In this document: positions 9,403-41,383 of the stretch, piece by piece | How positions within the stretch are numbered: the first letter of the stretch is position 1 | Layout of the letters: every line of letters starts with the position of its first letter | Virus record (IMG/VR): IMGVR_UViG_3300035698_015234 | Coordinates: 1 to 44,457 of that record | Reading direction: 5' to 3' (one strand) | DNA: 44,457 bases | Source of the DNA: a virus | The notes under the pieces: generated by a model | The model's input: the letters and a program-made list of their open reading frames with translations, nothing else | Told to the model about the DNA's origin: nothing | Databases searched by the model: none | Program-made: the position numbers and the translations under genes

Positions 9403-9711
9403 TTAGCCCCTTATCTTAATATCATTTTTTTTTGCTATATTCTTCGCTAAAGATAAAATTTTATTCACAATTGCATCCATAGCATCATGATCGGAAATAC
9501 CCACTTCTATCTTCATTTCTTCCTTGTTGTCTTCCCGATTTATAAAAGTTTCCAAATCTTCATTTTTTCTTATCGTATTTAAAAACCTACTGACATCAGA
9601 ATGAATCAAATTCATCTTCCCATCTTCGGTTGTAGGAGAACGGAGAAAGGTCATCTCTGTTCGTATCACAGTTTTGGCCAGTTTAAGTAATTCTGTAGCT
9701 ACCTTTTTCAT
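9403..9711 (-). CDS. Small protein with the N-terminal AKELxKIAK-type helix
   Basis: 102 residues from the ATG at 9711, chosen because it brings the motif MKKVATELLKLAKTVIR to the N-terminus as in its relatives; the upstream gene stops two bases earlier. The rest is a charged domain (LETFINREDNKEEMKIEVG) ending with another helix (DAIVNKILSLAKNIAKK). The N-terminal helix is shared with many proteins of this window (see the findings). Placed among head-tail joining genes. Function unknown. Confidence 0.6.
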   Translation of the reverse strand: MKKVATELLKLAKTVIRTEMTFLRSPTTEDGKMNLIHSDVSRFLNTIRKNEDLETFINREDNKEEMKIEVGISDHDAMDAIVNKILSLAKNIAKKNDIKIRG

Positions 9712-9712
9712 T

Positions 9713-10198
9713 TTAAAAATCCTGTTCAGGTATACTAGCTGGCTGGAAATTAGGTGCAATTGTTCGAGAAAGTTGACTCTTTCTTTCTTGTCCAGGAATC
9801 CTATGACTATACCTTTTTAACGCATAAATTTGCTTTTTGGCATCATCAACATATGCTGTTGCTTGATCTGTTATATTTTGTGCTAATCCTTGAAACTCAT
9901 TAAGTAAGATAAGTCCAGCAACCCAATACCTTGAACATCTACGCACATCACCTGGGAAAACCCTTTTCGTTGTACCATCTGGTTGAATATAATTCATTGC
10001 CCGTAATGGCGTATGATACAGTTCCATTAAAATTGCATCTATTTCCCTGTCCGTTGTTTCTTGGTAATGATTGACCATTGGTTGTGTAACCTTTGCCATC
10101 TTGCCTTCACCAATATCAATAACATGCAAAACTTCTTGTATTTCAACCCAAGTGCCACTATAATATTCTTCTCCAGTAATTGGTGATATGTCAGCCAT
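9713..10198 (-). CDS. Head-tail connector-like protein
   Basis: 161 residues with SD TAGGAGA. The sequence is helical, with TTDREIDAILMELYHTPL followed by a helix containing RRCSRYWVAGLILLNEF. Head-tail connector and adaptor proteins of the gp6/gp36 type show the same layout: membership of tandem small helices, Asp/Glu-rich start, then Arg and Trp-rich helices. The position before the terminator-like gene supports this. Identity as an adaptor is inferred, not proven. Confidence 0.45.
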   Translation of the reverse strand: MADISPITGEEYYSGTWVEIQEVLHVIDIGEGKMAKVTQPMVNHYQETTDREIDAILMELYHTPLRAMNYIQPDGTTKRVFPGDVRRCSRYWVAGLILLNEFQGLAQNITDQATAYVDDAKKQIYALKRYSHRIPGQERKSQLSRTIAPNFQPASIPEQDF

Positions 10199-12840: not shown

Positions 12841-13644
12841 TTAACTCCTAAAATCTACTTCAAATTTCCATTCGCCTTTTTGTCCAGCTTCAGGTTTCAC
12901 AATAGCCAATTTTGTATCACCTACACAAAATGCTGCAAGCGTGATAACAACCGAATTGCCATATTGAAGTGATAATTCCTTCGCTACTTTCAATACTTCA
13001 CTTTGTGTGTCATATCTAGCACTCAATCTTCTATCATTATCAATTGGCTCTCTTCTGTCAAAACCCCATTCTTTTTCAATAATAAACTTTTTTTCAACAG
13101 GACCCTTTTTAATAGGATATTTTTCAACACGTACACGTTTTGCTCTTTTAGGTTCACGAATAATTTTTGAACGACGAACATTCTTCATTGAACCATATCC
13201 ACCACCATAGCCATCTCCCTGTCCTTGATAGTCCTCATCTGTTTTCATAGCATCATCAAGGGCTTCTTTTTCTGTCCAACCCTCACCACGAATAGCTCTG
13301 GTTTCTGTTCCAGCCTTAAAACGATGTCTACTTTTATCACTCATTGGCCCACCCATTGCCATTTTATCCATCCAACGATTAACTTGTTGTATAGCTCTAT
13401 GAACATCTGTTTTATTATCAGCATATTCTTCCCACATCACTTTGCCATTATCAATATCAATTGCCGCAATCCAAAAACGTCCATCTGGTTGTGGTCTGCG
13501 AATAATTGTATATTTCTTCCCATTATAAGAAGTTTCTGCATTGGAAATTTCACTTGGTGTTAATCTTACGGGCTTATTCCGATACTCTGGTGATCGTGCC
13601 ATTATTTCTTTTGCAACCTTTATCAATTCTTGTGCTTCTTTCAT
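12841..13644 (-). CDS. Putative internal head protein with N-terminal AKELxKIAK-type helix
   Basis: 267 residues from the ATG at 13644 (AGGAGA six bases upstream); longer starts lie in the previous gene. It opens MKEAQELIKVAKEIMAR. A strand-rich segment follows (KKYTIIRRPQPDGRFWIAAI), then a Gly/Tyr-rich stretch (QGDGYGGGYGS) and a strongly basic region (RSKIIREPKRAKRVRV). A second motif-like helix occurs near residue 225 (EVLKVAKELSLQYG). The basic middle would suit DNA contact inside the capsid. Function inferred only. Confidence 0.5.
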   Translation of the reverse strand: MKEAQELIKVAKEIMARSPEYRNKPVRLTPSEISNAETSYNGKKYTIIRRPQPDGRFWIAAIDIDNGKVMWEEYADNKTDVHRAIQQVNRWMDKMAMGGPMSDKSRHRFKAGTETRAIRGEGWTEKEALDDAMKTDEDYQGQGDGYGGGYGSMKNVRRSKIIREPKRAKRVRVEKYPIKKGPVEKKFIIEKEWGFDRREPIDNDRRLSARYDTQSEVLKVAKELSLQYGNSVVITLAAFCVGDTKLAIVKPEAGQKGEWKFEVDFRS

Positions 13645-13654
13645 CTTGTTTCTC

Positions 13655-14296
13655 CTAATGTCCCATACCGAAAGGAGTTTCATATTTTGGTTTTCCATCC
13701 CATTTAGATGCATTAGCATAAGAAATACTTACTGAATCACCAGGTCGAACTCTTTTAGTCATTGTCGGTCCCTCAAAATGATTTGGAACAGCAACTACTG
13801 TATCATTATTAAAAGTTTTACTTCCTATCTTTCTGATTTTAACACTCTTTTCACCAATACCTGTTACTTGATAAAAATCAATGTTTGTTTGATCATATCC
13901 CCAAGTTGTATACAAAATATCATCTTCTTTTAAATTGTGTCTGTATTGTGTTCTTTCCTGCCTTCTCTGTTTCATAGTATCTGCATGACTCTTATGACTA
14001 TCAATTGTTTCTTGTATTTTACTATCCAATCTTGATTTATCCCTAAACCGATAATGCCATAAAGGTTTATTAGCTTTGCCACCAAAGGCTATACCATATA
14101 AATCGCCTTTTTCACTTTCATAACTCCAAAATTCTAAATCTAAATCTTTACCTTCTGGAATTGGCTGAAGATTGGGAGCATTTTTAGGAATATAAAAACT
14201 ACGAGGAAAATTCATTCTGCCACTCCATGCCATAACTTCCTTAGCAATTTTTAATTCCCTTGCAATATTTACTAATTCTTTTGCTACAATATTCAT
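13655..14296 (-). CDS. Phage protein with shared N-terminal helix and a WGYDQT domain
   Basis: 213 residues, SD AAAGGAG. The N-terminus MNIVAKELVNIAREL carries the recurring helix, followed by a second half-repeat (KIAKEVMAW). Residues ~125-155 hold DILYTTWGYDQTNIDFYQV and then a KSVKIRKIG strand, a small beta-domain that I recognise as recurrent in large-phage hypothetical proteins but whose role is unknown. Probably a virion-internal protein. Confidence 0.55.
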   Translation of the reverse strand: MNIVAKELVNIARELKIAKEVMAWSGRMNFPRSFYIPKNAPNLQPIPEGKDLDLEFWSYESEKGDLYGIAFGGKANKPLWHYRFRDKSRLDSKIQETIDSHKSHADTMKQRRQERTQYRHNLKEDDILYTTWGYDQTNIDFYQVTGIGEKSVKIRKIGSKTFNNDTVVAVPNHFEGPTMTKRVRPGDSVSISYANASKWDGKPKYETPFGMGH

Positions 14297-16496: not shown

Positions 16497-16757
16497 TTAA
16501 ATAGACCTTGATAATCTTTCTTCCCATCTCATCGCTTCTTCAAGACTATGAAGTGTTTTTCTAAGATTAGTTTCCACTACACTCCACCACTTCATCATAT
16601 CTCTATCCAGATTACTTTTTTTCAGATTATTAATTATATTCAATGCGTTTTTTAAATCTTCTGTTACACTATAGGCTTCCTCAAGATCAATAGCATAACT
16701 GCTGTTAATTTCTTTTGCTATCTTTACCAATTCTTTTACTACAGCTATTCTATTCAT
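16497..16757 (-). CDS. Small protein with N-terminal KELVKIAK helix
   Basis: 86 residues; the ATG at 16757 overlaps the upstream TGA (ATGA), so translation is coupled. It begins MNRIAVVKELVKIAKEIN, the recurring helix, and the rest is helical (DLKNALNIINNLKKSNLD), ending LEEAMRWEERLSRS. About 85 residues is typical for the smallest members of this set. Function unknown. Confidence 0.6.
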   Translation of the reverse strand: MNRIAVVKELVKIAKEINSSYAIDLEEAYSVTEDLKNALNIINNLKKSNLDRDMMKWWSVVETNLRKTLHSLEEAMRWEERLSRSI

Positions 16758-16963
16758 AGTTGTTCTTCTACCCATTTTTCAGCATCATTAATCTTTCCAT
16801 CCTTAGCATACCATTCTTTCACAAGTCCTTGAGCTTTTCCCAATGGTATCTTATTATTAATCTGATACACTACCCATGCCATTTCATCCTCAGACATCTG
16901 TTTATGAAATTGCTTTAAAACCGATAATGTTTTTTTGGCAAATTCTTTATTCATAATAGCCAT
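16754..16963 (-). CDS. Small helical protein, unknown
   Basis: 69 residues from the ATG at 16963 (or 66 from 16954). A longer frame to 17023 is rejected because its first 20 codons run through a hairpin that follows the upstream gene. The product is helical and contains KKTLSVLKQFHKQMSEDEMA; it ends in an acidic stretch and overlaps the next gene by ATGA. No SD is obvious. Unknown function. Confidence 0.5.
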   Translation of the reverse strand: MAIMNKEFAKKTLSVLKQFHKQMSEDEMAWVVYQINNKIPLGKAQGLVKEWYAKDGKINDAEKWVEEQL

Positions 16964-18131: not shown

Positions 18132-18518
18132 TTATGACCTGTTGATAGCCATTTCAAATAATTCTTTCAGGTTAGTTTTAGCTTCTTTCCATAACTCATT
18201 CGGATTTCTACTCCTAGTTCCTCCGCCTGGAAGATATACATTAGAATTTTCTTCTGACTGTATCGTTCCATTTACGGATTCGGAATTAGGCGGATACCCA
18301 AATTCTGAAATCACTATATAGAAAGGAATTTCTGCTAAACCAATAGAATAGGTGAAATTAATTCTCATATTTCTATCATCTACAGATTTAACCTTAATAG
18401 ACCTATCTTTATTCATTACCTTAACAAGTTCCCTAACAAACTCTGCAGTGTTTTCATCTTTCCATTCATCACCACCAAGTATTGTTTTGGCAATCTTTAC
18501 CAATTCTTTTACTATCAT
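18132..18518 (-). CDS. Small protein with N-terminal KELVKIAK helix
   Basis: 128 residues beginning MIVKELVKIAKTILGGDEW, one of the clearest examples of the recurring helix. The rest is an alpha/beta domain (MRINFTYSIGLAEIPFYIVI) and a closing helix (LWKEAKTNLKELFEMA). The SD (AAAAGAGG) lies in the end of the upstream gene. No enzymatic motif. Likely an internal head protein if the targeting idea is right. Confidence 0.6.
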   Translation of the reverse strand: MIVKELVKIAKTILGGDEWKDENTAEFVRELVKVMNKDRSIKVKSVDDRNMRINFTYSIGLAEIPFYIVISEFGYPPNSESVNGTIQSEENSNVYLPGGGTRSRNPNELWKEAKTNLKELFEMAINRS

Positions 18519-18523
18519 AGAAA

Positions 18524-19231
18524 TTAGCCTCTTTTCATTGATACTGGCTCATATCCTTTGCGAAGCTTCTCACTCATATGTTTTTCAGCCGCATCTTGAG
18601 CTCTAGCCAAACTGGAAGCAACACCACCTGAATACTTCTCTGTCAAATCATAGGTGCGTTCCACAATTCCAATTCTTCCAGAACAATTCAAAGCAATATA
18701 TCTCTGAACACCAGTTGCATCATTAAATGAAAATACTACATAATAATGATATTTATTAGCATTAGCATATTCATCAATGTAAGCCAAATATTCAGACCAT
18801 TCCTTTTTCAACTCACTCGGCCTTACTTGGAAATCTTGTCTGGATAGAAATTTGACTGCTTCTTTACGAACAATAGCAGAAATCCGTGGTGCATAACTCG
18901 TTAAGGAATCCTTAACTTCCACATTCCTCAAACCAACATCCACATCCTTACGAACAGGCATCCAAGGTAAAGCAATTCTCTGATGTGCTTCTTTTACCTT
19001 CTTTTGACATTTCACACAATAACCAGTATTTTTAAGCACTTTAGTCCCACAATTAGGACATTTGAAAGTATCAGTTGTACTTGCTTCTTTTACTTTCTTT
19101 TGACACTTTACACAATAACCAGTATTTTTAAGCACTTTGGTTCCACAAACAGGACACTTGAAAGTATCAGTTGTACTTGCAAGCATTTCAGCAATTTTTA
19201 TTAATTCATGTGCTACAATCATTTTATTCAT
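18524..19231 (-). CDS. Tandem zinc-ribbon protein with N-terminal shared helix
   Basis: 235 residues, SD AAGGAG. It starts with a MIVAHELIKIAEMLAS helix, then two almost identical 32-residue zinc ribbons (TFKCPVCGTKV...CVKCQKK and TFKCPNCGTKV...CVKCQKK), each with two CxxC pairs. The C-terminal domain contains a strand-rich core with YHYYVVFSFNDATG. The ribbons probably bind zinc and a nucleic acid or protein partner. A fragment of the same ribbon type is found out of frame beside the HNH gene at 40672-40713. Confidence 0.6.
   Translation of the reverse strand: MNKMIVAHELIKIAEMLASTTDTFKCPVCGTKVLKNTGYCVKCQKKVKEASTTDTFKCPNCGTKVLKNTGYCVKCQKKVKEAHQRIALPWMPVRKDVDVGLRNVEVKDSLTSYAPRISAIVRKEAVKFLSRQDFQVRPSELKKEWSEYLAYIDEYANANKYHYYVVFSFNDATGVQRYIALNCSGRIGIVERTYDLTEKYSGGVASSLARAQDAAEKHMSEKLRKGYEPVSMKRG
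18987..19178 (-). repeat. Two tandem 96-bp repeats encoding zinc ribbons
   Basis: Units 18987-19082 and 19083-19178 differ at only a few positions and each encodes a 32-residue zinc ribbon. The near identity suggests a recent in-frame duplication. Confidence 0.9.
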
Positions 19232-19279
19232 TTGCTTATCTCCTTAATTTGTTTCTAGCCATGATTTTCATTTGCAATT

Positions 19280-19333
19280 TATTAAAAGGGAGGCAGGGTG
19301 GTCACATATATGTTCAGTACAAACGCACCCTGC
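19280..19333 (-). terminator. Terminator-like hairpin after the 81-residue gene
   Basis: GCAGGGTG (19333-19326, minus strand) pairs perfectly over 8 bp with CACCCTGC (19300-19293), followed by CTCCCTTTTAAT. The loop is 25 bases. The T-run is short, so efficiency may be partial. Confidence 0.55.
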
Positions 19334-19368
19334 TTGCAGGCGTATTTTACTACCCTGCTGTGGAAATA

Positions 19369-19614
19369 TTAGCCAGTTGTAACTCTCAACAACGCATCAA
19401 CCAAAGTCTCAACCGTAGCATTAGGACGAATCAACCCAATACCATACTGCTGAAGACGACGACGTTTCTTTTGAGAAATCTTTACCAATGACTGTCTCAA
19501 TGTCCTGATTTTCTCATTAAACTTAGGGTCTACAACATCTGCCTCATCATCATTATCTGCCACTAGACTCCTAGCAATAACCAATAACTCTTTTGCTACT
19601 TTATTCTTTTGCAT
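19369..19614 (-). CDS. Small basic protein with N-terminal AKELLVIAR helix
   Basis: 81 residues, SD AAGGAGG. It starts MQKNKVAKELLVIARSLVA, then an acidic stretch (DNDDEADVVD), then a basic helix (KISQKKRRRLQQYG). A GATATT-class element lies 17 bases before the start and a terminator-like hairpin follows, so it could be transcribed alone. Function unknown. Confidence 0.6.
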   Translation of the reverse strand: MQKNKVAKELLVIARSLVADNDDEADVVDPKFNEKIRTLRQSLVKISQKKRRRLQQYGIGLIRPNATVETLVDALLRVTTG

Positions 19615-19630
19615 AATTCCTCCTTATATT

Positions 19631-19656
19631 AATAAACAATATCAAATAATAATTAG
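19631..19656 (-). promoter_or_regulatory. GATATT-class promoter-like element (copy 3)
   Basis: The minus strand reads CTAATTATTATTTGATATTG, 17 bases before the ATG at 19614 and overlapping the 3' end of the upstream gene. It matches the GATATT family listed at 8801. Confidence 0.5.
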
Positions 19657-19895
19657 GCTTTACCTTGCTGTTCCGAAAGGAATCGACCAGGAACATCCGC
19701 ACACGGCATTACAACACCAGCATTACTATTGATATGATTAGCCGTAGCTGAATGAGCAACACGCTCTGTTCCGCCTTCTGCACCTTTTACGATAACTCTG
19801 GTTTTATTGTCCTCAAATACCGGAACGCCATTCTCAAATTGAGCTGCTTCCAGTTCGCTTTGAGCCTTGTCTGTCAAATTTGATCTATAACTCAT
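19653..19895 (-). CDS. Small unknown protein downstream of Ro
   Basis: 80 residues from the ATG at 19895 with AGGAGGAG seven bases upstream; a longer frame to 19964 starts without an SD. The product is hydrophilic, opening MSYRSNLTDKAQSELEAA and containing KTRVIVKGAEGGTERVA. It lies between the Ro terminator and the 81-residue gene. No domain recognised. The very strong SD suggests abundant synthesis. Confidence 0.6.
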   Translation of the reverse strand: MSYRSNLTDKAQSELEAAQFENGVPVFEDNKTRVIVKGAEGGTERVAHSATANHINSNAGVVMPCADVPGRFLSEQQGKA

Positions 19896-19950
19896 AGGGT
19901 TCTCCTCCTGTTTAACATTAAATCTAAAAACGATATTCCACTTCATAAAT

Positions 19951-19978
19951 GGATAAAATATCAAAAAATTATTACAAC
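19951..19978 (-). promoter_or_regulatory. GATATT-class promoter-like element (copy 4)
   Basis: The minus strand reads GTAATAA followed by TTTTTTGATATTTTATCC. It begins directly after the T-run of the terminator at 19978-20011, so it would restart transcription after the Ro gene. It lies 56 bases before the ATG at 19895. Confidence 0.55.
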
Positions 19979-20011
19979 AAAAAAAGGCTGATGCTTTTTA
20001 AGGCACCAGCC
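19978..20011 (-). terminator. Rho-independent terminator after the Ro gene
   Basis: On the minus strand GGCTGGTGC and GCATCAGCC form a 9-bp stem with one G-U pair around an 8-base A-rich loop, followed by seven T. It lies 31 bases past the Ro stop codon. Confidence 0.9.
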
Positions 20012-20041
20012 CCTTTCTAATTTATCCTTATTATTGCTGTT

Positions 20042-21793
20042 TTAGCCCTTAATAGCCCATTTCTCACGAATTTGGTCTACCGTAGGTATAGCTTTTCCAG
20101 AAATAACACCTTCTGTCTGAAGAAGCATTGTGAATACCTTTTCAGAGAATCCAGCAACTTGATTCACTCGTTTACCTTCCTGAACAACACTATCACCATA
20201 ACCATTCAGATGAACACTATGTAACCAAGTGTCTTTGGCTTTTCCATGCTTCTTGTATTTTTCCCAACAATTAGCAAGGCATTCTTTCATATAACCATCA
20301 GAATCCCACATCTGCATATCTGACAAGAAAATAACCCTATCAGGAATTATATTGTGATCTATCAGCCATTGTACACATTTATGACCATTAGTGTTGTATC
20401 CACCAATATCTGTATTACTAACTTTATTGGCAATATTCAATACGGTATCATTCTTTGTGAACCTAACTTCGCCTACATCAGTTCCAAATGCAAAAACATA
20501 GGGATGCTCAGAAACTTTAGCCACAATACCGCAAAGAACATTAGCAGCATCTTTGCAAGAAATTTTTGACCTTTCCGATACAAGCATATTCATTGAACCA
20601 GAATTGTCAGCAAAGATTACAGTAATACCGGGCAAAGCTGGAACATTCGCACAAGCCTCATTTGAAGCCAATTCAATAGCAGCAGATAGCTCATTCAAAT
20701 CAGAAGTATCACATTCATCCTTCATTTTCAGTAAGGCTTTATAAGCCGACATAAAACGGAAAGGCAACTGTTTAGACCTCAATACTTCATCCTTGGATGA
20801 AATCTTGGACGATACTTTCTGAATAACATCCCTATCAAGACGTGCTTCAAGGATATTCCTCATATTACGCAACATAGCCATATAGCCCAAAAGATTTTCC
20901 TTGATCAGAAAAGTCCAGACCGCTTTCTTGTCATCCTTAAACTGCGAAAGTAAGACTTCCCAATTTACCAAGGAATCCTTTGCCAACTTCTTGGCTTTAG
21001 CATCGAACTTGGTCAATTTAGCCAACTGCTTACGAGCAGCAATAACAGGAGTCTTAGATTCATCCGCAATTTGACCCGTAATGAAATACTTGGCTACCTC
21101 AGACTTCAACGGCCAACCTGCCTTACGCCGAATCCAACACAACACATCTTTCCATTTCGGGAAATCAGCATTGTCGTATTTCATCAATCCTCGTTCACCA
21201 AATTTGGAAACCGCATCGCCTAGACCCAGATTGAGTCCATTTGACAACGACTTCATACCAAACAAGAAACGATGAACCAATAAGCAAGTCTTAATCTCAT
21301 CAGGACGCCTTATGATAGAAGGTGCATATTTACGCACCAATGACTTCGTATTATTGAACCTGGAAGCTACCACAAGCAATACTTGCGGTGTCAGTCTGAT
21401 ATTCATATCATTACGAAGCCAATTAGCAATAGCCAATAAATCTTCGGGATGCTGACTCTGAGCTATATCAACTGCGGTAGCAATAACTTCACGAGCCACT
21501 TCATTCAATTCGTCACAAGATTCAAAGCCCTTCAACTTCTCACCTACAACCTGAAGCCTTTCAGCCAACTTATTGAACTTACCACCTGTAATACGACTAG
21601 GAATACACATCTCAGCATTATAGAATTTGGGTTCAGCAAAGAAAGCTCCACCAGTCATTGTTACTAGCTTCAAAGCTGAATCATTGATTTCAAAAGCCAC
21701 TCCACCTGCCCTATTAACTGTAGCTTCTGGAGCATTACTTGGAAGTCTTGCCTTTACTGCCTTATTTCGTGCAATTTTCTTGAACTTACTCAT
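20042..21793 (-). CDS. rsr: Ro60/Rsr-type protein (TROVE domain plus vWA domain)
   Basis: 583 residues, full length for the family; SD AAGGAGG. Residues ~40-370 form the all-helical TROVE ring, which in known Ro proteins binds misfolded RNA ends in its hole and Y RNA on its outer face. Residues ~388-560 form a von Willebrand A domain with an intact MIDAS: DNSGSM at 396-401, Thr in GGYNTNG, Asp in FLSDMQ. Bacterial homologues work with Y RNAs and exonucleases such as PNPase in rRNA and tRNA processing or decay. Here the gene follows directly on an RNA operon carrying a tmRNA, tRNAs and unassigned structured RNAs. Role in this phage is inferred. Confidence 0.92.
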   Translation of the reverse strand: MSKFKKIARNKAVKARLPSNAPEATVNRAGGVAFEINDSALKLVTMTGGAFFAEPKFYNAEMCIPSRITGGKFNKLAERLQVVGEKLKGFESCDELNEVAREVIATAVDIAQSQHPEDLLAIANWLRNDMNIRLTPQVLLVVASRFNNTKSLVRKYAPSIIRRPDEIKTCLLVHRFLFGMKSLSNGLNLGLGDAVSKFGERGLMKYDNADFPKWKDVLCWIRRKAGWPLKSEVAKYFITGQIADESKTPVIAARKQLAKLTKFDAKAKKLAKDSLVNWEVLLSQFKDDKKAVWTFLIKENLLGYMAMLRNMRNILEARLDRDVIQKVSSKISSKDEVLRSKQLPFRFMSAYKALLKMKDECDTSDLNELSAAIELASNEACANVPALPGITVIFADNSGSMNMLVSERSKISCKDAANVLCGIVAKVSEHPYVFAFGTDVGEVRFTKNDTVLNIANKVSNTDIGGYNTNGHKCVQWLIDHNIIPDRVIFLSDMQMWDSDGYMKECLANCWEKYKKHGKAKDTWLHSVHLNGYGDSVVQEGKRVNQVAGFSEKVFTMLLQTEGVISGKAIPTVDQIREKWAIKG

Positions 21794-21830
21794 CTTACTA
21801 TCCTCCTTATTTTACCTTCTATTATTTCTG

Positions 21831-21870
21831 AAAAACAAAAAGCTGAATACCATACTTTCAGTATTCGGCT
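21831..21870 (-). terminator. Rho-independent terminator of the RNA operon
   Basis: AGCCGAATAC (21870-21861, minus strand) pairs with GTATTCAGCT (21850-21841), about 10 bp with one G-U, followed by TTTTTGTTTTT. It lies between tRNA 21877-21951 and the Ro start at 21793, so Ro is probably translated from read-through or from an unseen promoter. Confidence 0.85.
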
Positions 21871-21876
21871 TAAATT

Positions 21877-21951
21877 TGGTAGCGGAGAAGGGATTCGAAC
21901 CCTTTACCTTTTGGTTATGAGCCAAACGAGCTACCAGTGCTCCACTCCGCA
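21877..21951 (-). tRNA. tRNA with CAT anticodon (Met or lysidine-type Ile)
   Basis: 75 nt with CCA encoded. D-arm GAGC/GCTC, anticodon arm TTTGG-CTCATAA-CCAAA, T-arm AAGGG-TTCGAAT-CCCTT, and acceptor GCGGAG/CTCCGC. The first position is T opposite T at position 72, so the acceptor starts with a mismatch. The anticodon stem lacks the three G-C pairs of initiators. It may be elongator Met or an Ile tRNA that needs lysidine modification. Confidence 0.9.
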
Positions 21952-21959
21952 ATCAAAAG

Positions 21960-22247
21960 CCGACACCAATAAATGCACAAAGTGTTTTCTTATAATGAAG
22001 TATCTCTGTGCTGAAGCATGTCTGCTATAAACTTAAAACCCGATACCAATAATCGCTAATGAGAGACCAACCATTTAAGGTTGTACAATGCTTTTCTAGG
22101 GCAAGGTATCCTTTATACTTAGATCAAAAGTCGCTAGTTTCCTAGCAATTTCGCCAAACTTTATCCCTAGTTATATAGGGGTCCAGCATTTATAATTAGA
22201 AGTAACTCATTGCTGAAGAGTATCGAATTACAAAGAACAAATCAACT
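21960..22247 (-). ncRNA. Unassigned structured RNA with its own promoter (Y-RNA candidate 2)
   Basis: About 290 nt without coding sequence between the tmRNA and a tRNA, expected to start near 22247 from a sigma70-like promoter. A core at 22087-22190 folds by eye: AATGC/GCATT closes it, CTAGGG pairs with CCCTAG, and TTGCTAG-GAAA-CTAGCGA forms a 7-bp stem with a GNRA tetraloop (22131-22148); a small GTAT/ATAC hairpin lies at 22106-22118. The 104-nt core is Y-RNA-sized. A GCACA/TGTGC hairpin lies further downstream. Identity is unknown; its place beside Ro is the main argument. Confidence 0.4.
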
Positions 22248-22253
22248 ATCTAT

Positions 22254-22283
22254 ACTATACCACACAAAATGATTTTATTGCAA
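22254..22283 (-). promoter_or_regulatory. Sigma70-like promoter inside the RNA operon
   Basis: TTGCAA, an 18-base spacer, then TATAGT on the minus strand. It lies immediately past the tmRNA 3' end and would start transcription near 22247. The same TATAGT box with TTGTAT at 17 bases occurs at 33440-33468. Confidence 0.55.
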
Positions 22284-22302
22284 TATTATTATTTTTTTAA
22301 AA

Positions 22303-22664
22303 TGGTGGAGGCGGGGGGGATTGAAACCCCGTCCAGAATGTCTTTCAACCCAGTATGCTACATGTTTATTCAAACCTTTTCTTGGAAAGTTTGACAATCC
22401 CTTGTTACATCTTTCAGCAACCATAGCAATAGAATACTTGTTCTATAAAGCAAAGGGCTCGACTTCCCTTTTTGTACCTTAGTGATCGTCGCTACTTATG
22501 ACTACAAAGGCTATCTCATCATTTTCACGCTTGCCTGCAATTAAGCGGCAAGAAGAACTGGAACGTCAGCAGTTAATGCTGTTAATGGAATTGTTAACGG
22601 TGCCAACCATCATCACCGACATGCGACCAAATCTCCATTCATCTGTCGAAACCATGTCGCCCCC
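22303..22664 (-). ncRNA. ssrA: tmRNA (transfer-messenger RNA)
   Basis: 362 nt. The 5' end GGGGGCGACATGGTTTCGACAG and 3' end GCCTCCACCA are the classic tmRNA ends. GGGGGCG pairs with CGCCTCC over seven positions with a G3-U70 wobble, the alanyl-tRNA synthetase identity element. A T-loop-like TTTCAAT precedes the acceptor and CCA is encoded. A GCA at nucleotides 86-88 opens a frame for ALTADVPVLLAA followed by TAA, a plausible proteolysis tag ending LLAA. tmRNA rescues stalled ribosomes and tags the products for degradation. The tag start is inferred from position. Confidence 0.93.
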
Positions 22665-22682
22665 AAAAAAATCAAAGAACAA

Positions 22683-22902
22683 ATATGTGATGTGCTATTA
22701 CGCCAAAGAAACTAGACAAAAGCGTACTTCCAAATGTGCTGTAGTTTACCAACCTACTCATACACGTTCCGCTATGTCATTCGCATATCTAATGATTTAT
22801 TTATGTTGGACGCTATTCCTTTATCAGGAAGACCCGTAATCATTCCTTTTGCTCGTTCCACTCTTTAGTCGATAGCTGCTTCTAAGCTTACGATTCACAT
22901 AT
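22683..22902 (-). ncRNA. Unassigned structured RNA domain with D-arm-like hairpin (Y-RNA/YrlA candidate 1)
   Basis: Part of a 353-base stretch without genes (22665-23017) between a tRNA and the tmRNA. ATATGTGA (22902-22895, minus strand) pairs perfectly with TCACATAT (22690-22683), closing a 220-nt domain at its ends as in Y RNAs. Inside, GTAG-GTTGGTAAA-CTAC (22757-22741) is a convincing tRNA D-arm mimic, and TACGC/GCGTA forms another helix. YrlA RNAs of bacteria contain a tRNA-like module, so this is a reasonable partner for the Ro protein. No T-arm was found and no covariance model could be run. Confidence 0.4.
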
Positions 22903-23017
22903 ATCAAAGAACAATTGCTAGATTCTGCCCTCACCATCACTTTCAGACAGTATGATAAAGCTATACCGCCGACAGATTTTATACTAGCTGGTCTTTTACT
23001 CTCTGCGTAAAACATAT

Positions 23018-23094
23018 TGGTTGCTGGTATGGGAATTGAACCCATCTAAAATGGTTATGAGCCATCCTTCTGCACTCCAGCCGAATAACCAGCA
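23018..23094 (-). tRNA. tRNA with CAT anticodon (Met or lysidine-type Ile), second copy
   Basis: 77 nt with CCA encoded. Acceptor TGCTGGT/ACCAGCA pairs perfectly over 7 bp, the anticodon arm is GATGG-CTCATAA-CCATT, and the T-arm is ATGGG-TTCAATT-CCCAT. The D-arm is weak (TTC/GAA around a 12-base loop). T1-A72 is unusual for both Met and Ile tRNAs. First tRNA of the operon. Confidence 0.88.
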
Positions 23095-23261
23095 TTTAAA
23101 CTATTCTACACTCTCGAAGCGAGACTCATTACTAACCTGGCTGGATTTCAACCTTGTTCCGGAGCCTATAGGTGAATTCTTGCCTACGGTTTTCCGTCTA
23201 TCATTTTCCGTCTTCACAAGTCTCCATCCGAGAGTAGGAAATTCAATTTCCTTTCTGCTAC
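23095..23261 (-). ncRNA. Leader of the RNA operon, possible further RNA
   Basis: 167 bases without coding potential between the promoter at 23262 and the first tRNA. It holds an AGGAAATT/AATTTCCT hairpin (23236-23252), an ACGG-AAAA-CCGT hairpin next to two GACGGAAAA repeats, and a TCTCG/CGAGA hairpin. A T-loop-like GGTTGAAATCC is present but no tRNA can be completed around it. Probably a 5' leader that is processed off. Confidence 0.3.
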
Positions 23262-23294
23262 TATATTGCATCCACCTGACATAAATCCGGAAAA
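23262..23294 (-). promoter_or_regulatory. CCGGATTT-class promoter of the RNA operon
   Basis: TTTTCCGGATTT, then 12 bases, then TGCAATATA on the minus strand. The same block with the same 12-base spacing occurs at 26861, 28021, 29434 and 31658. It begins just after the stop of the 127-residue gene and reads into the tRNA/tmRNA operon. Confidence 0.65.
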
Positions 23295-23297
23295 TAT

Positions 23298-23681
23298 TTA
23301 CACTTTCAAAGTATCAGGCAAAACCTTCTTATTGTCAATAACAGATTTAGCCGCTGATTCAGGATTCCCAGCCAACTTATCTGGCAATGTTCCTTTGGGT
23401 TTTGATGAAGGTATTACCATCCTCACTTCACCTGTTTTTATTTCAACAACCCTACCTTCTGCTATTTCTTCACCCATTGCCCTACGCTTTTCAGTATCAA
23501 CTTGATGAGCTTCTACAGCTTGCCAACTTCTAAAAGACATAATTCCCAACTGATGTACACCACCAAAGAACACATCCAAACGATATTTCAATGAAGAAAA
23601 ATTATTTCGTCGAATATTGGCATCACGACAAATTCGTCGTTGCCGGTCTTTTCTTTTCTTCTGTTTGTCTTTTGAACTCAT
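23298..23681 (-). CDS. Basic protein, unknown
   Basis: 127 residues. The first 40 residues are extremely basic (SSKDKQKKRKDRQRRICRD), suggesting nucleic-acid contact; the remainder holds AMGEEIAEGRVVEIKTGEV and ends acidic/neutral. No SD is obvious before the ATG. It is the last protein gene before the RNA operon and could bind its RNAs, but that is speculation. Confidence 0.5.
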   Translation of the reverse strand: MSSKDKQKKRKDRQRRICRDANIRRNNFSSLKYRLDVFFGGVHQLGIMSFRSWQAVEAHQVDTEKRRAMGEEIAEGRVVEIKTGEVRMVIPSSKPKGTLPDKLAGNPESAAKSVIDNKKVLPDTLKV

Positions 23682-23751
23682 AAACTTAAAAGGAAATACT
23701 AGATTAAAAATTCCTCACACAACAACACTATACCACAAAGATAGATATTTT

Positions 23752-24492
23752 TCATCTTTTTTCACGTTCTTTATGGAAATATATATTAAAGTTCTTAATA
23801 AGGGTATTAATTATAGAAACTGTGAACTGTTCGCCAGCCGAACTCGGATAAGAAAATTGCAAAGTTGAACCAGACAAAATAGCTACCAATAACCTTGCAC
23901 CATCTACTCCACCAAAAATCCTACTAAATGAAAGATTACCAGAAAGAGATGACAATATCTCATCTATACCCATATCAAAATCAACATCTGCTTTTCTAAA
24001 CCACAACCATAATAAAAGACCGCCCAATGTTATACCAGTTACATACTTTGCCTTACGATTTTTTTCAAAATATTCATCTAAATCTTGTAATTGTTCTGAT
24101 GTCCATCTATGACCCCTAAATCCTTTCTCTCGAACATAATCATTCATCACTTCTTTTAAATCACGATATGCCTTATAGCCTTTTCTCATTAAATCATAGA
24201 GTCTCTTAAAATCCCATTTAATTCTATTAAAGAATTTTATCATCTTTGAGTTTTTAAAAAGCTCAACAACAGAAGCAACAGAAGTATCTAAAGCCTTTGC
24301 AACATCCTTTGTGAAATCTAATGTAACACCAGCTACCAATATTTTTGCTTTAATCGCTTCTATCCTTACTGATGCTACCTTAGAAAACCGTTGTTCTGCT
24401 GCAAAATGTTCCTGAAGAATCCTGGCAGGTGTCCAATCATGTGCCAGTTTCCATTCGTTTACCAATACCTCTGCTATGCGTTGCTTACTCAT
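23752..24492 (-). CDS. Helical protein with one probable membrane segment
   Basis: 246 residues, coupled to the previous gene by ATGA. The first 150 residues are helical and charged (SKQRIAEVLVNEWKLAHDW). A hydrophobic run GITLGGLLLWLWF near residues 155-167 could cross a membrane. The C-terminal part is hydrophobic and Ser/Gly-rich. No motif identifies it. Since it is translated with a DUF3293-like protein, the two may act together. Confidence 0.5.
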   Translation of the reverse strand: MSKQRIAEVLVNEWKLAHDWTPARILQEHFAAEQRFSKVASVRIEAIKAKILVAGVTLDFTKDVAKALDTSVASVVELFKNSKMIKFFNRIKWDFKRLYDLMRKGYKAYRDLKEVMNDYVREKGFRGHRWTSEQLQDLDEYFEKNRKAKYVTGITLGGLLLWLWFRKADVDFDMGIDEILSSLSGNLSFSRIFGGVDGARLLVAILSGSTLQFSYPSSAGEQFTVSIINTLIKNFNIYFHKEREKR

Positions 24493-25409
24493 GTTTCCAT
24501 CTCTCTAGCTATAAGTTCTGCTATACATAATCTCTTGGATAAAGCAGCAAATCTTTTATTTAAACATATATTAATAATACCATCTTTAGAACCATAATGT
24601 CCAGTAGGTATATTGCCATACTTTAATTTTGAAGATGCAATACGATTAGTAATATTTTCCATTTGCACACTCTTACGAAACTTATCCTTAAAACAATCTT
24701 GGATATTTAGTTGAAACTTAGTATGTTGTTTGTCTTTTAATTTAACATCCGTAAAATCCATTTTGGCAGTAGGTATATCTTTCCATCCTTTATTACCACA
24801 TATCTTTCCCTTCTTTTCACCTGTAGTATATACCATTCGATTATTACCATTTATGCCATGCAATACACTATCCTGATTAAACTTTTCACCTAATTTTTCC
24901 ATTATTTTTTTCTGTTTATCAAAATCATCCTTGTGATGATGAACCATAATTGATTTGGCAGTTTTGGACGTAAGTTCAACATCGTCGTGAAACACAATAA
25001 AACTATGTTCCTGACCACCTCCATAATTCCCTAATGCTTCTGTATATGGTACACCTAATTTCTCCAATTCGTCTCGTAAAGCTAAATGCCTTTCGTGAAA
25101 ATACTCATCGTCAGGTTTCATGTTTTCTTCTGCCGGGTCATTTTCATTTCTACCACCCGACACAACAGTAAAATACCCCTTATCCAATGTTTCTTTCAAT
25201 AAAGGCTTATTTAAAACAGCATGATGTTGTGGTTTAAGATGTTTTACATTCCTGTCTGGTTTCCATTTTACATGAGGTGGAGGGGCTTTTGCTGGCTTGT
25301 CAGAGCCTTCTGGTGGTGACTCTCTATATTCATAAGAGCCATCATCTTTATGATGTCGCCATAATACCCTATCACCTTCAGGAGCTTCCCATTTTTTATT
25401 ATTTGGCAT
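24489..25409 (-). CDS. DUF3293-like protein
   Basis: 306 residues with a GATATT-class element 20 bases before the start and SD AGAGGG. Residues ~80-145 hold YFTVVSGGRNENDPAEENM, then a helix, then GNYGGGQEHSFIVF, matching in outline the small DUF3293-like domain that large phages often fuse to other modules: an SxGRN loop, helix and a Glu/His-Ser-Phe strand. The N-terminal 50 residues are Pro/Lys-rich and the C-terminal part is basic. No activity is established for this domain. Confidence 0.5.
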   Translation of the reverse strand: MPNNKKWEAPEGDRVLWRHHKDDGSYEYRESPPEGSDKPAKAPPPHVKWKPDRNVKHLKPQHHAVLNKPLLKETLDKGYFTVVSGGRNENDPAEENMKPDDEYFHERHLALRDELEKLGVPYTEALGNYGGGQEHSFIVFHDDVELTSKTAKSIMVHHHKDDFDKQKKIMEKLGEKFNQDSVLHGINGNNRMVYTTGEKKGKICGNKGWKDIPTAKMDFTDVKLKDKQHTKFQLNIQDCFKDKFRKSVQMENITNRIASSKLKYGNIPTGHYGSKDGIINICLNKRFAALSKRLCIAELIAREMET

Positions 25410-25428
25410 AGATATCCCTCTATAATGA

Positions 25429-25452
25429 GCAGGAATATCAAAGAATTATGAG
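25429..25452 (-). promoter_or_regulatory. GATATT-class promoter-like element (copy 5, divergent)
   Basis: The minus strand reads CATAATTCTTTGATATTCCT, 20 bases before the ATG at 25409. It is less AT-pure than the other copies but keeps TTTGATATT and the distance. Confidence 0.4.
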
Positions 25453-25471
25453 AAGAGATAATGCAGGACTA

Positions 25472-25822
25472 TCAGACAATAAACCACTTGGATAAAAAAA
25501 GTCTTAACTTTTTCATATAATATATAATAAAATTTGAAGATACTGATCCACCTTCTATCCAGCCATTAGTGGAATTCATCATAATCCTACCATCATTATA
25601 TACTCGAAATTGGAAACTGGTAATCATTTTGCAAGGATAGCATACCCCTGCTAACCTAAACTCAAGACAGTTGTTTTGTTCAATTATATTTCCTCGCAAG
25701 TCTTGTACTGGGTTTTTGCAAGAAAAACATTTCCCCTGAAAATCACTCAAAGTAACACCATTCTTAAAATAAGGAAAAACAACAGGACTGGCATCTATAT
25801 ACTGTTGTGGAGATAATGTCAT
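25472..25822 (-). CDS. Zinc-binding small protein
   Basis: 116 residues from the ATG at 25822, eight bases after the upstream stop; a GTG start at 25882 inside the upstream gene is the alternative. CFSCKNP near residue 30 and CYPCKMI near residue 60 form a CxxC-x~30-CxxC zinc site. The end is hydrophobic and basic (FIIYYMKKLRLFLSKWF) and might touch a membrane. SD is weak. No family recognised. Confidence 0.45.
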   Translation of the reverse strand: MTLSPQQYIDASPVVFPYFKNGVTLSDFQGKCFSCKNPVQDLRGNIIEQNNCLEFRLAGVCYPCKMITSFQFRVYNDGRIMMNSTNGWIEGGSVSSNFIIYYMKKLRLFLSKWFIV

Positions 25823-25829
25823 AGAATTC

Positions 25830-26504
25830 TTATATTCTGGCAACAAATGCCATAATCTGAAGATACCGTTTGTGATCTTCACTGCCCTTGATAAGTAATC
25901 CCGAATGACTCATTTGCTTGGTATCAGGAGAAGTTTTCGCTTCCAATGCTGCAAAATTAGTCGGCTGAAACTTCACATTCCAAATTCGACCTTCGTTACT
26001 GAACCTGTCCACCTTCTGTTCGAATATATCCAAATGGACATACATTGGATCATTTCTGAAAGTGATAAATTGGAAAAGGTCAATAGGACGAAGCGATTTA
26101 CCACTTTTTTTCCTACCATCAAATTTACTACTGATAGTGAAATAAGCATCTGTCAACTTACTGCCTACGGCATCTCGCCAACAAGAATCGTGATCACATT
26201 CCAAAAACCATTCCGATACGTTTTCAGAATAAATACAACTTTCTTCCCATCCTTTTGCATCCTTTCGTGGTTCCCAAAATAGAACCTTGGTGTAATTACT
26301 AGGACGTTGGAATATAAAATACAATGTTTTATGAATATTTAATTGCTTCCGTTCAAGAGTGTTACCATCCTCTGCAAAGCCGTGATCGCTAATGCTCATT
26401 TCAATACCCAAAAGCAAACCCAGTTTTCTATCTGAAAAGCGTGGGAGCATAGCTTCAACAATGCGACTAATAGCCGATCCTGCATCCAAATTAACAATAC
26501 TCAT
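25830..26504 (-). CDS. Unknown protein of the accessory island
   Basis: 224 residues with AAAGGAG before its ATG; the SD and start lie in a 19-bp tandem duplication. The sequence is mixed alpha/beta (NIHKTLYFIFQRPSNYTKVL, LRPIDLFQFITFRNDPMYVH) with a Cys/His pair (ECDHDSCWRD). No catalytic signature is evident. It forms a unit with the 101-residue gene upstream and the zinc protein downstream. Confidence 0.55.
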   Translation of the reverse strand: MSIVNLDAGSAISRIVEAMLPRFSDRKLGLLLGIEMSISDHGFAEDGNTLERKQLNIHKTLYFIFQRPSNYTKVLFWEPRKDAKGWEESCIYSENVSEWFLECDHDSCWRDAVGSKLTDAYFTISSKFDGRKKSGKSLRPIDLFQFITFRNDPMYVHLDIFEQKVDRFSNEGRIWNVKFQPTNFAALEAKTSPDTKQMSHSGLLIKGSEDHKRYLQIMAFVARI

Positions 26505-26538
26505 TTTGATCTCCTTTTCTCATTTTGATCTCCTTTTC
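26501..26538 (-). repeat. 19-bp tandem duplication of an SD plus start codon
   Basis: 26501-26519 and 26520-26538 are identical. Each unit contains AAAAGGAGATCAAAATG on the minus strand, so a decoy ATG with its own SD lies 19 bases before the real start and opens a 10-codon frame in another phase. Confidence 0.95.
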
Positions 26539-26842
26539 ACGAAAACGAAGTAATCCCATGCCGTTTTAGAACTTCACCAATTTTTTCGATAACCTTTTCG
26601 CCTTTCTTTCTATTCCAACAAGGATATTCTTCATCTTTATGTCCAGCATAGTGAGTCGTATCAATAATCATATTGATTAATTCATCAATGGTTCCAACAA
26701 ACCCTTCCTTTTCGAGTTCCAGTTTGACGGAATACAGAAGCCCACCAAAAACATTAATCAGGTTAAACTTGATAGCCCTGATATTGTTATCAATTGCTTC
26801 ACCAATCTCTTCTTTAATTGCATCTTCAATTCCTGTATTCAT
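26537..26842 (-). CDS. Small acidic protein, unknown
   Basis: 101 residues, SD GGAGG. Acidic helical start (IEDAIKEEIGEAIDNNIRAI) then an alpha-rich core with a Tyr/His/Cys segment (HYAGHKDEEYPCWNRKKGEK). It is the first gene after a CCGGATTT-class promoter at 26861. No family recognised. Confidence 0.55.
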   Translation of the reverse strand: MNTGIEDAIKEEIGEAIDNNIRAIKFNLINVFGGLLYSVKLELEKEGFVGTIDELINMIIDTTHYAGHKDEEYPCWNRKKGEKVIEKIGEVLKRHGITSFS

Positions 26843-26860
26843 TACTTTCCTCCTTGTCCT

Positions 26861-26893
26861 TATATTGCAATAGAAAGCTAAAAATCCGGAAAA
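26861..26893 (-). promoter_or_regulatory. CCGGATTT-class promoter (copy 2)
   Basis: TTTTCCGGATTT, 12 bases, TGCAATATAAGG on the minus strand, ending 19 bases before the ATG at 26842. Matches the element at 31658 almost base for base in both boxes. Confidence 0.65.
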
Positions 26894-26896
26894 TAT

Positions 26897-27988
26897 TTAA
26901 GGCATAGTCAATTCACGATATAATTCATCAATTGCCTTTTCATCAGCACCCCAAGGCAAAACAGAAGAATCCTTCAATAAATCCATATTGGCCATACGCT
27001 TTTTAACATCAGCCATCAAATACTCATGAGTATAATGCCCAGCCCGAATATCCCGAAGATATTTAAGTTCTGCACCCTGAAACCTGATAATCGGTTCCCC
27101 GGTTTTTAGAATAGCCTCACCAGACATAAGCAAACGAACACAGTGTTGCATATTTTTAACATCATAATCCACTTCGCCTTTTTCCTGTGAAACCCAGCGA
27201 CTAGGATTGCGTTCTTGCATCCAAGTCCAATAGTTTTTCCAATCCTGCCTCGCTTTTTTATATTCGCATTCATTGTAAATAAGTAAGCCAACAAAACGCC
27301 CCTGTTCTTCCTCAATCGGAATACTATCACAAACTAAATTACCATCACGAAAAACACCTTTGGCTTCAGAACCATAGTAATAAAGCCGATAAGTGTCTTG
27401 CACATGCTCCAAACCAGCCACATGGCACATTTCCAATGGATAACCCCCATCCATCAAAGTCTCTCCATACGGCACAGGACGACTCGGAGGCTCGTGATTT
27501 TCCACATCAAAACTGCCTCTTCCAATTACCCAACAAAAATCTTCCCGTTTTGGAGGTTCTTTGGATTGTGGATTATTTACCCATTTATTCTCGCCTTTCG
27601 CCTTTTTGATCTGTGCCCAAGCATATCCGCAAAACGTATGATATGCCTTCTTGCTCACAAATAACTTGCGACATTCAATAAGACGTTTCATCCTATCATC
27701 GCATCTCATAATACAATCTTTAGGCATAAAGAGAAATTCAATAATATTAGGATTAGACTCCTTGGCAAGAGACATAAACTTCGCCAATTCATAATACTTA
27801 ACATCAATAGGTTTCTCTTGCCCTATCTCGGTAAAAGTCTGAAGAATAGAAACTCGTTTTTTCATAGGAACAATAAATATCCCACGATAATCTATATCAC
27901 TCGTAGGAATAGAAGTTCCATAGGCATGTGAACCAGTCATAGCCTTGAAAATAATCCAATCTGTCTTTTCTAACATTTCAATGTTCAT
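26897..27988 (-). CDS. rlaP: RlaP-type nucleotidyltransferase (RNA repair-associated)
   Basis: 363 residues from the ATG at 27988, SD AAAGGAG; the longer frame to 28033 runs into the promoter. GSHAYGTSIPTSDIDYRG at residues 19-36 is the polymerase-beta-type nucleotidyltransferase signature: the GS helix start followed by D31-x-D33, which bind metal and NTP. NPNIIEFLF near residue 80 is typical of the PF10127 family (named RlaP, also COG3541), whose bacterial members are linked with RNA repair genes. The substrate is not known; a tRNA or broken RNA end is inferred. It has its own CCGGATTT-class promoter and shares the island with a Ro protein. Confidence 0.82.
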   Translation of the reverse strand: MNIEMLEKTDWIIFKAMTGSHAYGTSIPTSDIDYRGIFIVPMKKRVSILQTFTEIGQEKPIDVKYYELAKFMSLAKESNPNIIEFLFMPKDCIMRCDDRMKRLIECRKLFVSKKAYHTFCGYAWAQIKKAKGENKWVNNPQSKEPPKREDFCWVIGRGSFDVENHEPPSRPVPYGETLMDGGYPLEMCHVAGLEHVQDTYRLYYYGSEAKGVFRDGNLVCDSIPIEEEQGRFVGLLIYNECEYKKARQDWKNYWTWMQERNPSRWVSQEKGEVDYDVKNMQHCVRLLMSGEAILKTGEPIIRFQGAELKYLRDIRAGHYTHEYLMADVKKRMANMDLLKDSSVLPWGADEKAIDELYRELTMP

Positions 27989-28020
27989 TTTTCTCCTTTG
28001 ATTAATAATAAATCTAACCC

Positions 28021-28053
28021 TGTATTGCATCAAGTCATTAAAAATCCGGAAAA
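28021..28053 (-). promoter_or_regulatory. CCGGATTT-class promoter (copy 3)
   Basis: TTTTCCGGATTT, 12 bases, TGCAATACA on the minus strand, 33 bases before the RlaP start. It is embedded in a duplicated 78-base segment whose other copy is at 29435-29512. Confidence 0.65.
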
Positions 28054-39896: not shown

Positions 39897-40754
39897 TTAT
39901 GCCGCTTTTGTTGTTTTTGCACCTTTTCTAATATTCTCCTCAGCCCACAAAGGCTGAAGATTTGTATAGTAAAAACATTTTCTTTGATTTTCAGGCATAG
40001 ATAAGTCAAAAGATGCACACGGGATTATATGATCTATGTGCCACTTACCATAGTTTTCCCAATTCATTCCATTCTTAAATTTTGATTCCAAGTGTTTTTT
40101 AAAATCTTCAATAGAACATCCTAAAAGTTCCATAGTATGAGCACTCTTTGTATGCTTACCTTTCTTGAGAACGTCTTTAATCCTATTACGCAGGTTTCCC
40201 CTCAATTTAAAGTTGGGATCAATCATTCTTCTGTTTTTAGAATACTCTCTGTAATTTTTCCTTATCTCGTCTCTATTTTCATTTCTATGTTTTCTTTCAA
40301 CAGAAAGTATATGTTCTCTGTTCGCCAAACGATATTTACTCGCTTTTCTTCTACATTCATCGCGGTTCTTGTAATACCATCCCATTTTCTTCTTGCGAAA
40401 TTTATCAATATTTTCACTCCTTCTTATATTTCTTTGAGTATTGAATTTATCCCTATTTTCAAGATCGTATAGTTTGCGACATTTTTTACATTCGTATCTA
40501 TATCCATCTTTACTATCATTACATGATCCGAATTCACTTATATCTTTTTCTGTTTGGCACTTATTGCAAACCCTAGATGTAATATGTCCTCGGCTACACT
40601 CCTTACATATATTCAATCTATATTTTCCCTTACGATGAAATAAATCTATTGGCTTTTCTATATTACATTTTTCACAAACTCTCGATACGGGTTCTACAAT
40701 TAGGACATTTAAAAAATGCCAGTTGCTGCTACGACAGAAGCAACTCTTTTCCAA
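39897..40754 (-). CDS. HNH endonuclease with zinc-ribbon repeats and no ordinary start codon
   Basis: 285 residues if read from TTG at 40754; the first in-frame ATG is more than 100 codons in. Three CxxC-type knuckles (CEKCNIEK with CKECS, CNKCQTEK with CKKCR) precede a basic helix and a canonical HNH: WHIDHIIPCASFDLS then NLQPLWAEENIRKGAK. A likely homing endonuclease. It overlaps the upstream gene by 46 bases in the -1 phase, beside six T, so it may be made from a weak TTG start or by frameshifting. It divides the small head-protein genes. Confidence 0.75.
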   Translation of the reverse strand: MEKSCFCRSSNWHFLNVLIVEPVSRVCEKCNIEKPIDLFHRKGKYRLNICKECSRGHITSRVCNKCQTEKDISEFGSCNDSKDGYRYECKKCRKLYDLENRDKFNTQRNIRRSENIDKFRKKKMGWYYKNRDECRRKASKYRLANREHILSVERKHRNENRDEIRKNYREYSKNRRMIDPNFKLRGNLRNRIKDVLKKGKHTKSAHTMELLGCSIEDFKKHLESKFKNGMNWENYGKWHIDHIIPCASFDLSMPENQRKCFYYTNLQPLWAEENIRKGAKTTKAA

Positions 40755-41032: not shown

Positions 41033-41042
41033 TTTTCTCTTT

Positions 41043-41372: not shown

Positions 41373-41383
41373 AACTACTCCTT

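Follow-up and report, generated by a model that had tools for sequence, protein, structure and literature searches.

Here we analyzed a linear virus record of 44,457 bp (IMGVR_UViG_3300035698_015234, termed the window, being the whole stretch of DNA under study), which holds capsid and tail genes and has all of its genes on the minus strand; every window feature given below lies on that strand. In the non-coding region upstream of its Ro60 gene an RNA was located at 22683-22902, and judged from its sequence and predicted fold it is almost certainly a copy of the GTPase-associated centre (GAC) of 23S ribosomal RNA (rRNA), comprising helices H42, H43 and H44, the last two set apart by an insert of about 150 nt. 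A preliminary description made from the letters alone had placed a transfer-messenger RNA (tmRNA), tRNAs and unassigned RNAs in this stretch, and ARAGORN and Rfam agree with it on the tmRNA and the tRNAs. The unassigned RNAs are genuine, but their identity was missed, as one of them is the GAC copy.

The window RNA carries GCTTAGAAGCAGC and, 179 nt further on, TTGGCGTAATAGCAC, which correspond to the H43 loop and H44 of 23S rRNA. The H43 loop proper, UUAGAAGCA, occupies 22885-22877 and the H44 segment, UUGGCGUAAUAGCACAUC, occupies 22706-22689, while blastn matched the RNA to 23S positions 1063-1088. The closing helix AUAUGUGA/UCACAUAU is a perfect 8 bp, having A-U instead of the usual G1055-C1104. 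A weight matrix trained without the window lineage gave the window RNA 59.5 bits and had no hits in 220 shuffles. A covariance model (R1), built from 25 sequences of unrelated phages, recovered the 5′ half (E 6.7e-8) and the 3′ half (E 0.0039), and these two halves were its sole matches in the window. The RNA is flanked by two boxA sequences and immediately precedes the tmRNA; the same two GAC halves are found in the relatives L099, L102 and L122. L200, a GC-rich phage that is unrelated and lacks Ro, has the order boxA, GAC RNA, boxA and tmRNA, with its GAC RNA closed by a 12-bp stem.

The distribution of this RNA was surveyed with the 3′-half pattern TTTGGCGTARNAGCACRCC, which returned at least 120 viral contigs where about 5 were estimated by chance. 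Among the matches listed there were 104 distinct 3′-half hits, 59 of them preceded at 78-373 nt by the H43 loop where about 1.6 would be expected, and the non-redundant set holds GAC-like RNAs from at least 56 distinct phages, many of them unrelated. The consensus of the 56 RNAs is GGRAUGUUGGC-UUAGAAGCA-GCCAUCAUYUAARGAGU, then the insert, then UUUGGCGUARNAGCACACC. E. coli 23S 1055-1089 was matched by 54 of the 56, the best being identical at 34/34 positions (E 7e-13), and 19 of the 56 have a tRNA or tmRNA on their own strand no more than 150 nt away. Cultured carriers include Cronobacter GAP32, Serratia BF, Aeromonas 4_4572, Xanthomonas XacN1 and XaC1, and the Pseudomonas phages pf16, Astolliot and UNO-G1W1; in those of their records that were checked the RNA is unannotated. 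Hits to the 5′ half suggest that the Erwinia SNUABM phages, Milchi, CBB and XbC2 carry it too. In bacterial genomes the 3′-half pattern gave 31 hits in 257 Gb, which is about chance, and the 13 of these with both halves are probably prophages or co-binned phage contigs. Paenibacillus Pd_22F was removed from the carriers, as its record holds a true whole 23S gene; this gene scored 2940 bits with the large subunit (LSU) model, while LSU_rRNA gave no match in the window or the named phages. No family in Rfam 15 matches the GAC-like RNA and no description of it was found in the open-access literature. No conserved protein neighbour of the RNA was detected beyond DUF2828/TROVE in a few loci; DUF2828/DUF7788 vWA proteins, weakly Ro-like, were observed near the RNAs of L249, L282 and L385 (also L250, L260 and L329).

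Both loops were fixed by the retrieval pattern and are conserved by construction, and the structural tests therefore rest on other positions. Over the 56 sequences the closing helix (H42) was 81% paired, compared with 49% in shuffles (maximum 54% in 1000), and each of its variable pairs showed 12-34 two-sided changes. The H43 pair 1058-1080 changed on both sides 29 times, and covariation was also seen in the basal helix of the insert. Positions 1082-1086, which form a tertiary pair in the established GAC structure, are UA or CG in 34 of the 56, against a mean of 17.7 and a maximum of 28 in 10,000 shuffles. The U1060.U1078 mismatch of 23S is retained in 42 of the 56, and U1060 is invariant. For the 25 sequences behind model R1 the covariation score was 0.575 vs 0.125; these had been picked as having no fewer than 5 of the 8 closing pairs, with the window lineage left out, and the value is thus biased toward the closing helix. 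The three helices H42-H44 of the 23S fold and its 1082-1086 tertiary pair were accordingly all found in the phage RNA. That such an RNA is captured rRNA debris without function, or a chance similarity, is hardly credible: some phages do hold rRNA pieces, and the Pd_22F record has a whole 23S, but the covariation of helices and tertiary pair over 56 divergent members refutes this explanation, and the regular insert, the phage-specific H44 variant UUUGGC...AGCACACC and the position beside tRNAs also speak against it.

Compared with the GAC of 23S rRNA (E. coli 1051-1108), the phage RNA is identical over H43 and the linker for up to 34 nt and has the same loops, mismatch and tertiary pair, and model R1 also picks the genuine GAC of E. 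coli 23S (E 1.9e-10). It differs in being free-standing, outside any 23S gene, with a variable closing helix of its own, with 30-330 nt between H43 and H44 and with the H44 variant UUUGGC/GCACACC.

The surroundings of the window RNA were then compared with those in relatives, which were gathered via the major head protein (112 fetched, 80 kept); a query of viral_contigs with the single Ro protein gave no match, whereas the capsid-protein route succeeded. The 1.5 kb from the small basic protein gene (23298-23681, without a match in Pfam or PHROGs) to Ro contains no family-supported open reading frame. The tmRNA (22303-22664) was identified by ARAGORN and by Rfam RF00023 (model positions 1-374, 102.9 bits), and it has the tag ADVPVLLAA, an encoded CCA and G3.U70 in the acceptor stem. 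A tRNA-Met(CAT) at 21877-21951 (62.9 bits) is conserved directly upstream of Ro, and a weaker second tRNA-Met(CAT) at 23018-23094 (42.8 bits) has a counterpart at 10500-10576 of L099. Ro/RlaP presence was scored over the 41 longer relative contigs; Ro was found in 11 of them with 51-69% identity. The order small basic gene, non-coding region with tmRNA, tRNA-Met and Ro recurs in 8 of 10 other distinct Ro-bearing relatives (L122 included), tmRNA and tRNA-Met being missing only from the two most divergent; in all, tmRNA, tRNA-Met and Ro keep together in 9 of 11 related phages. In relatives too the small basic gene marks the edge of the non-coding region, and the 1-4 kb from it to tRNA-Met/Ro is largely non-coding and holds the tmRNA; several of them carry other RNAs where the GAC RNA would be. 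Whole-window Rfam and E-value scans returned tRNA and tmRNA only, by which GOLLD, ROOL, Y RNA and LSU were ruled out as the identity of the window RNAs; for the Y RNA family there was no match at E <= 5 in 21700-23800, although a diverged Y RNA could escape.

Three boxA-like elements punctuate this region: TTGTTCTTTGA at 22904-22914, before the GAC-like RNA, the same sequence at 22672-22682, 7 nt before the tmRNA, and TTGTTCTTTGT with one mismatch at 22230-22240. A boxA occupies the same place before the tmRNA in L099, L102, L104, L122 and the unrelated L200. All 15 copies of GTTCTTTGA in the 30.9 kb of non-coding DNA are in sense, with none in antisense, and another 4 were counted over both strands of 276 kb elsewhere; this is a density of 4.86 (sense only) versus 0.14 per 10 kb. 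A TGYTCTTTRA-like sequence is thus conserved before stable RNA genes, and we infer that the elements would serve as antitermination signals of the host NusB/S10 type. Scanning for promoters and terminators brought up no signal that exceeded the shuffles. Many unrelated phages (L204-L235) also have a boxA-like element 9-33 nt ahead of a tmRNA TTCGAC motif, about 20 of these 34 matches being true tmRNAs.

The region also contains two copies of a hairpin module (module M). Copy 1 at 22041-22218 reads CUUCAG-stem-UUACUUC ... stem'-GAUUAUUGGUAUC, and copy 2 at 21961-22016 (56 nt), one letter off the search pattern, has the stem GCACAGAG/CUUUGUGC as read from the sequence. The pattern CUUCAG-stem-UUACUUC ... 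stem'-GAUUAUYGGURUC was found 9 times in 34.5 kb of the relatives' non-coding DNA and not at all in 423 kb of control; one or two copies stand just upstream of tRNA-Met/Ro, also in L099, L101, L103, L104, L105 and L122. Module M is possibly a ligand of Ro. For the third RNA unit alifold gave no single consensus structure, owing to indels.

The Ro60/TROVE gene (20042-21793) encodes 583 aa, with a TROVE HEAT-repeat domain and a C-terminal vWA domain having an intact metal ion-dependent adhesion site (MIDAS), and the earlier claim of a full-length Ro60/Rsr with this site is borne out. The TROVE family PF05731 was matched at E 2.8e-16 and vWA_Ro60 at E 4e-9 in Pfam, residues 21-561 match phrog_850 of PHROGs (E 9.6e-40), and the MIDAS residues D396-x-S398-x-S400, T468 and D492 show no variation across 16 homologues. 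The AlphaFold model (pLDDT 80) matches human and Xenopus Ro60 (9nfa, 2i91), Deinococcus radiodurans Rsr (2nvo) and the Ro60 of Thermus phage phiLo (9l5y), all at E <= 2e-12; with Foldseek the values for 9nfa, 2i91 and 2nvo were E <= 3e-13. The Ro-like proteins of crAss001, of Streptomyces and Gordonia phages, of phiLo and of Listeria phage CKA15 belong to the same family. Phage Ro loci in IMG/VR often adjoin tRNA clusters: 22 of 47 have one no further than 1 kb away, where 13.6 would be expected. The GAC-like RNA was not found in the 80 fetched Ro loci other than those of the window lineage. In CKA15 an Rsr-like gene has been described near abundant non-coding RNAs, close to tRNAs (PMC12282133).

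The isolated 58-nt GAC of 23S rRNA is a tight binder of uL11 and the target of thiostrepton, and uL11 on ribosomes is needed for the activation of RelA. As the GAC fold appears intact in a free-standing copy, the phage RNA should bind uL11 or proteins reading that site. We propose that the phage would transcribe non-coding RNAs as an operon in which boxA-like elements act as antitermination signals, and that the GAC-like RNA, tmRNA, tRNA-Met and the hairpin RNAs would be released from it, Ro60 following downstream. In the GAC-like RNA the closing helix takes the place of the rRNA context, and an extra helical domain stands between H43 and H44. The RNA may bind uL11, and possibly also uL10/bL12 or site-reading factors (EF-G, EF-Tu, RelA), and would titrate these ligands or serve as bait, by which host translation or the stringent response may be altered for the phage; tmRNA and tRNA would support phage translation, and Ro would scavenge or remodel structured RNA of the same transcript family. 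By analogy with the known GAC, the case that the RNA is a trans-acting decoy for host uL11 or other ligands of the site seems to us evenly balanced. More tentative is the narrower suggestion that it assembles with host uL11 (perhaps uL10/bL12) and draws translational GTPases or RelA off the ribosomes, thereby blunting the stringent response or other ribosome-sensing defences.

Several points weigh against this proposal. Besides the fixed loops mentioned above, the folding energy of the window RNA is ordinary (z -0.71). The Ro-bearing relatives L101 and L103-L106 have no recognisable GAC RNA, so that on present sequences this RNA is not obligatory for the Ro operon. A ribosomal L11 gene was found in 0 of 49 GAC-RNA phage contigs; this fits a host-directed decoy and is expected for one, but is no positive evidence.

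A different target is conceivable, in which the GAC-like RNA would be bait for a ribosome-targeting defence, that is for nucleases or modifying toxins aimed at exposed 23S elements (GAC, sarcin-ricin loop, H69-H71), which would then attack or bind the phage RNA in place of the ribosomes. L105 carries ATAACGGACCTAAGGTAGCGAA, which is 21/22 nt of 23S 1916-1937 (H69-H71) and lies, oriented, at -2079 relative to the Ro start, after a boxA and within a module-M RNA; L200 has a sarcin-ricin-like hairpin, CTCGCTAGTACGAAAGGAGCGCGAG, about 300 nt into its GAC RNA and within the insert; short 23S matches occur in L103 and L104; and rRNA matches are about 7 times commoner in the non-coding regions than in control DNA, always in sense. 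The non-GAC pieces are, however, single cases near the noise level, and we know of no toxin that cuts the GAC, and so bait of this kind is unlikely though by no means negligible. A slimmer prospect is that Ro60 has the GAC-like RNA and module M for its Y-RNA-like ligands or guides, which would direct it, together with host polynucleotide phosphorylase, toward 23S decay or maturation, as with Deinococcus Rsr. Bacterial Y RNAs do mimic tRNA, in the window lineage Ro follows immediately downstream, the unrelated L271 combines GAC RNA, tRNA, tmRNA and Ro within a single contig of 23 kb, and the vWA proteins of DUF2828 type near the RNAs of L249, L282 and L385 point the same way. TROVE was present on 4 of 49 GAC contigs and 0 of 40 controls, a difference which is not significant, and a significant association was therefore dropped. 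Among the 80 Ro loci the GAC RNA is confined to the window lineage, most GAC-RNA phages are without Ro, and no Rfam Y RNA family matched. The link of Ro with the GAC RNA, as read from these loci, is real in the window lineage and L271 and is not general.

The preliminary description had instead proposed a joint quality-control or repair module of Ro, tmRNA, tRNAs and RlaP, acting against anticodon nucleases. All of these genes are present in the window, and Ro-like and RlaP proteins of large phages have already been read as RNA-repair components (PMC7824862); the phage genes and this interpretation of them are thus already known. The RlaP-family nucleotidyltransferase (26897-28033) is a genuine gene whose GS...DxD motif is intact as had been stated (PF10127, E 2.1e-22; phrog_388, E 2.4e-50; GS(11)DxD, TGSHAYGTSIPTSDID in translation). 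Synteny tells otherwise of its membership: Ro, tmRNA and tRNA-Met stay linked, but RlaP is carried by 4 of the 41 capsid relatives, and on the single contig with both RlaP and Ro the genes are about 56 kb apart. RlaP is hence ruled out as a conserved part of the Ro/tmRNA unit and is a passenger, whereas Ro, tmRNA and tRNA-Met form one conserved unit. The proteins within about 10 kb of the window locus that were searched against Pfam included no RNA ligase, and neither a linked ligase nor a linked Ro accompanies RlaP among the 41 relatives and these proteins. The repair module also leaves the GAC-like RNA unexplained, and we regard it as improbable. With one RNA identified as a GAC copy, the likeliest theme moves from a phage system for handling damaged RNA, of which the genes are indeed present, to interference with or takeover of translation.

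Among known systems, bacterial Ro60/Rsr with Y RNAs (Deinococcus rsr, Salmonella rsr-yrlBA-rtcBA) likewise have Ro beside non-coding and tRNA-type RNAs and share the theme of RNA mimicry. The window differs from them in that no Y RNA family matched and RtcB/RtcA were not found, in that its mimic resembles rRNA rather than tRNA, and in having a tmRNA inside the operon. The large ornate RNAs GOLLD and ROOL are also phage non-coding RNAs adjoining tRNAs, but are unrelated to the GAC-like RNA in sequence and structure, with no Rfam match. The L10 leader and other ribosomal protein mRNA leaders are also RNA copies of rRNA protein-binding sites; these act in cis in ribosomal protein mRNAs, whereas the GAC-like RNA stands separately, between boxA elements or tRNAs, with no ribosomal protein gene. 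Viral tRNA mimics are well known, but the open-access literature yielded no account of a viral RNA that mimics a functional rRNA domain and acts in trans. If the proposal is true, the RNA would be a class of viral RNA new to that literature, a ribosomal RNA mimic acting in trans, which may shed light on phage control of ribosomes, of the stringent response or of ribosome-targeting defence. Its counterpart, the 58-nt L11-binding domain, is among the best studied RNA-protein systems, so partners and effects are directly testable, and the RNA is present in cultured phages, among them those of Pseudomonas, Serratia and Xanthomonas. The puzzling phage islands of Ro60, tmRNA and tRNA would also gain a concrete RNA context.

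Some further features were recorded. The small gene downstream of Ro (19653-19964) is conserved and has an NxTDKxQxE motif, with no Pfam match. At the loci L110 1978-2054, L112 3782-3870 and L114 1306-1376, two relatives have Twister-P5 ribozymes within their non-coding region, and the third has a sub-threshold hepatitis delta virus (HDV)-like ribozyme which starts exactly at the tmRNA 3′ end and is possibly a tmRNA 3′-processing ribozyme. The protein encoded at 24489-25409 has an S-adenosylmethionine-lyase-like domain (PF23780, E 3e-7) and is perhaps involved in anti-restriction. The proteins at 9403-9759, 12841-14296, 16497-16775, 18132-19614 and 40709-41911 start with a similar amphipathic leader, M-NKE-VAKEL-KIAKEL, which is possibly a capsid-targeting peptide cut off by the phage head protease.

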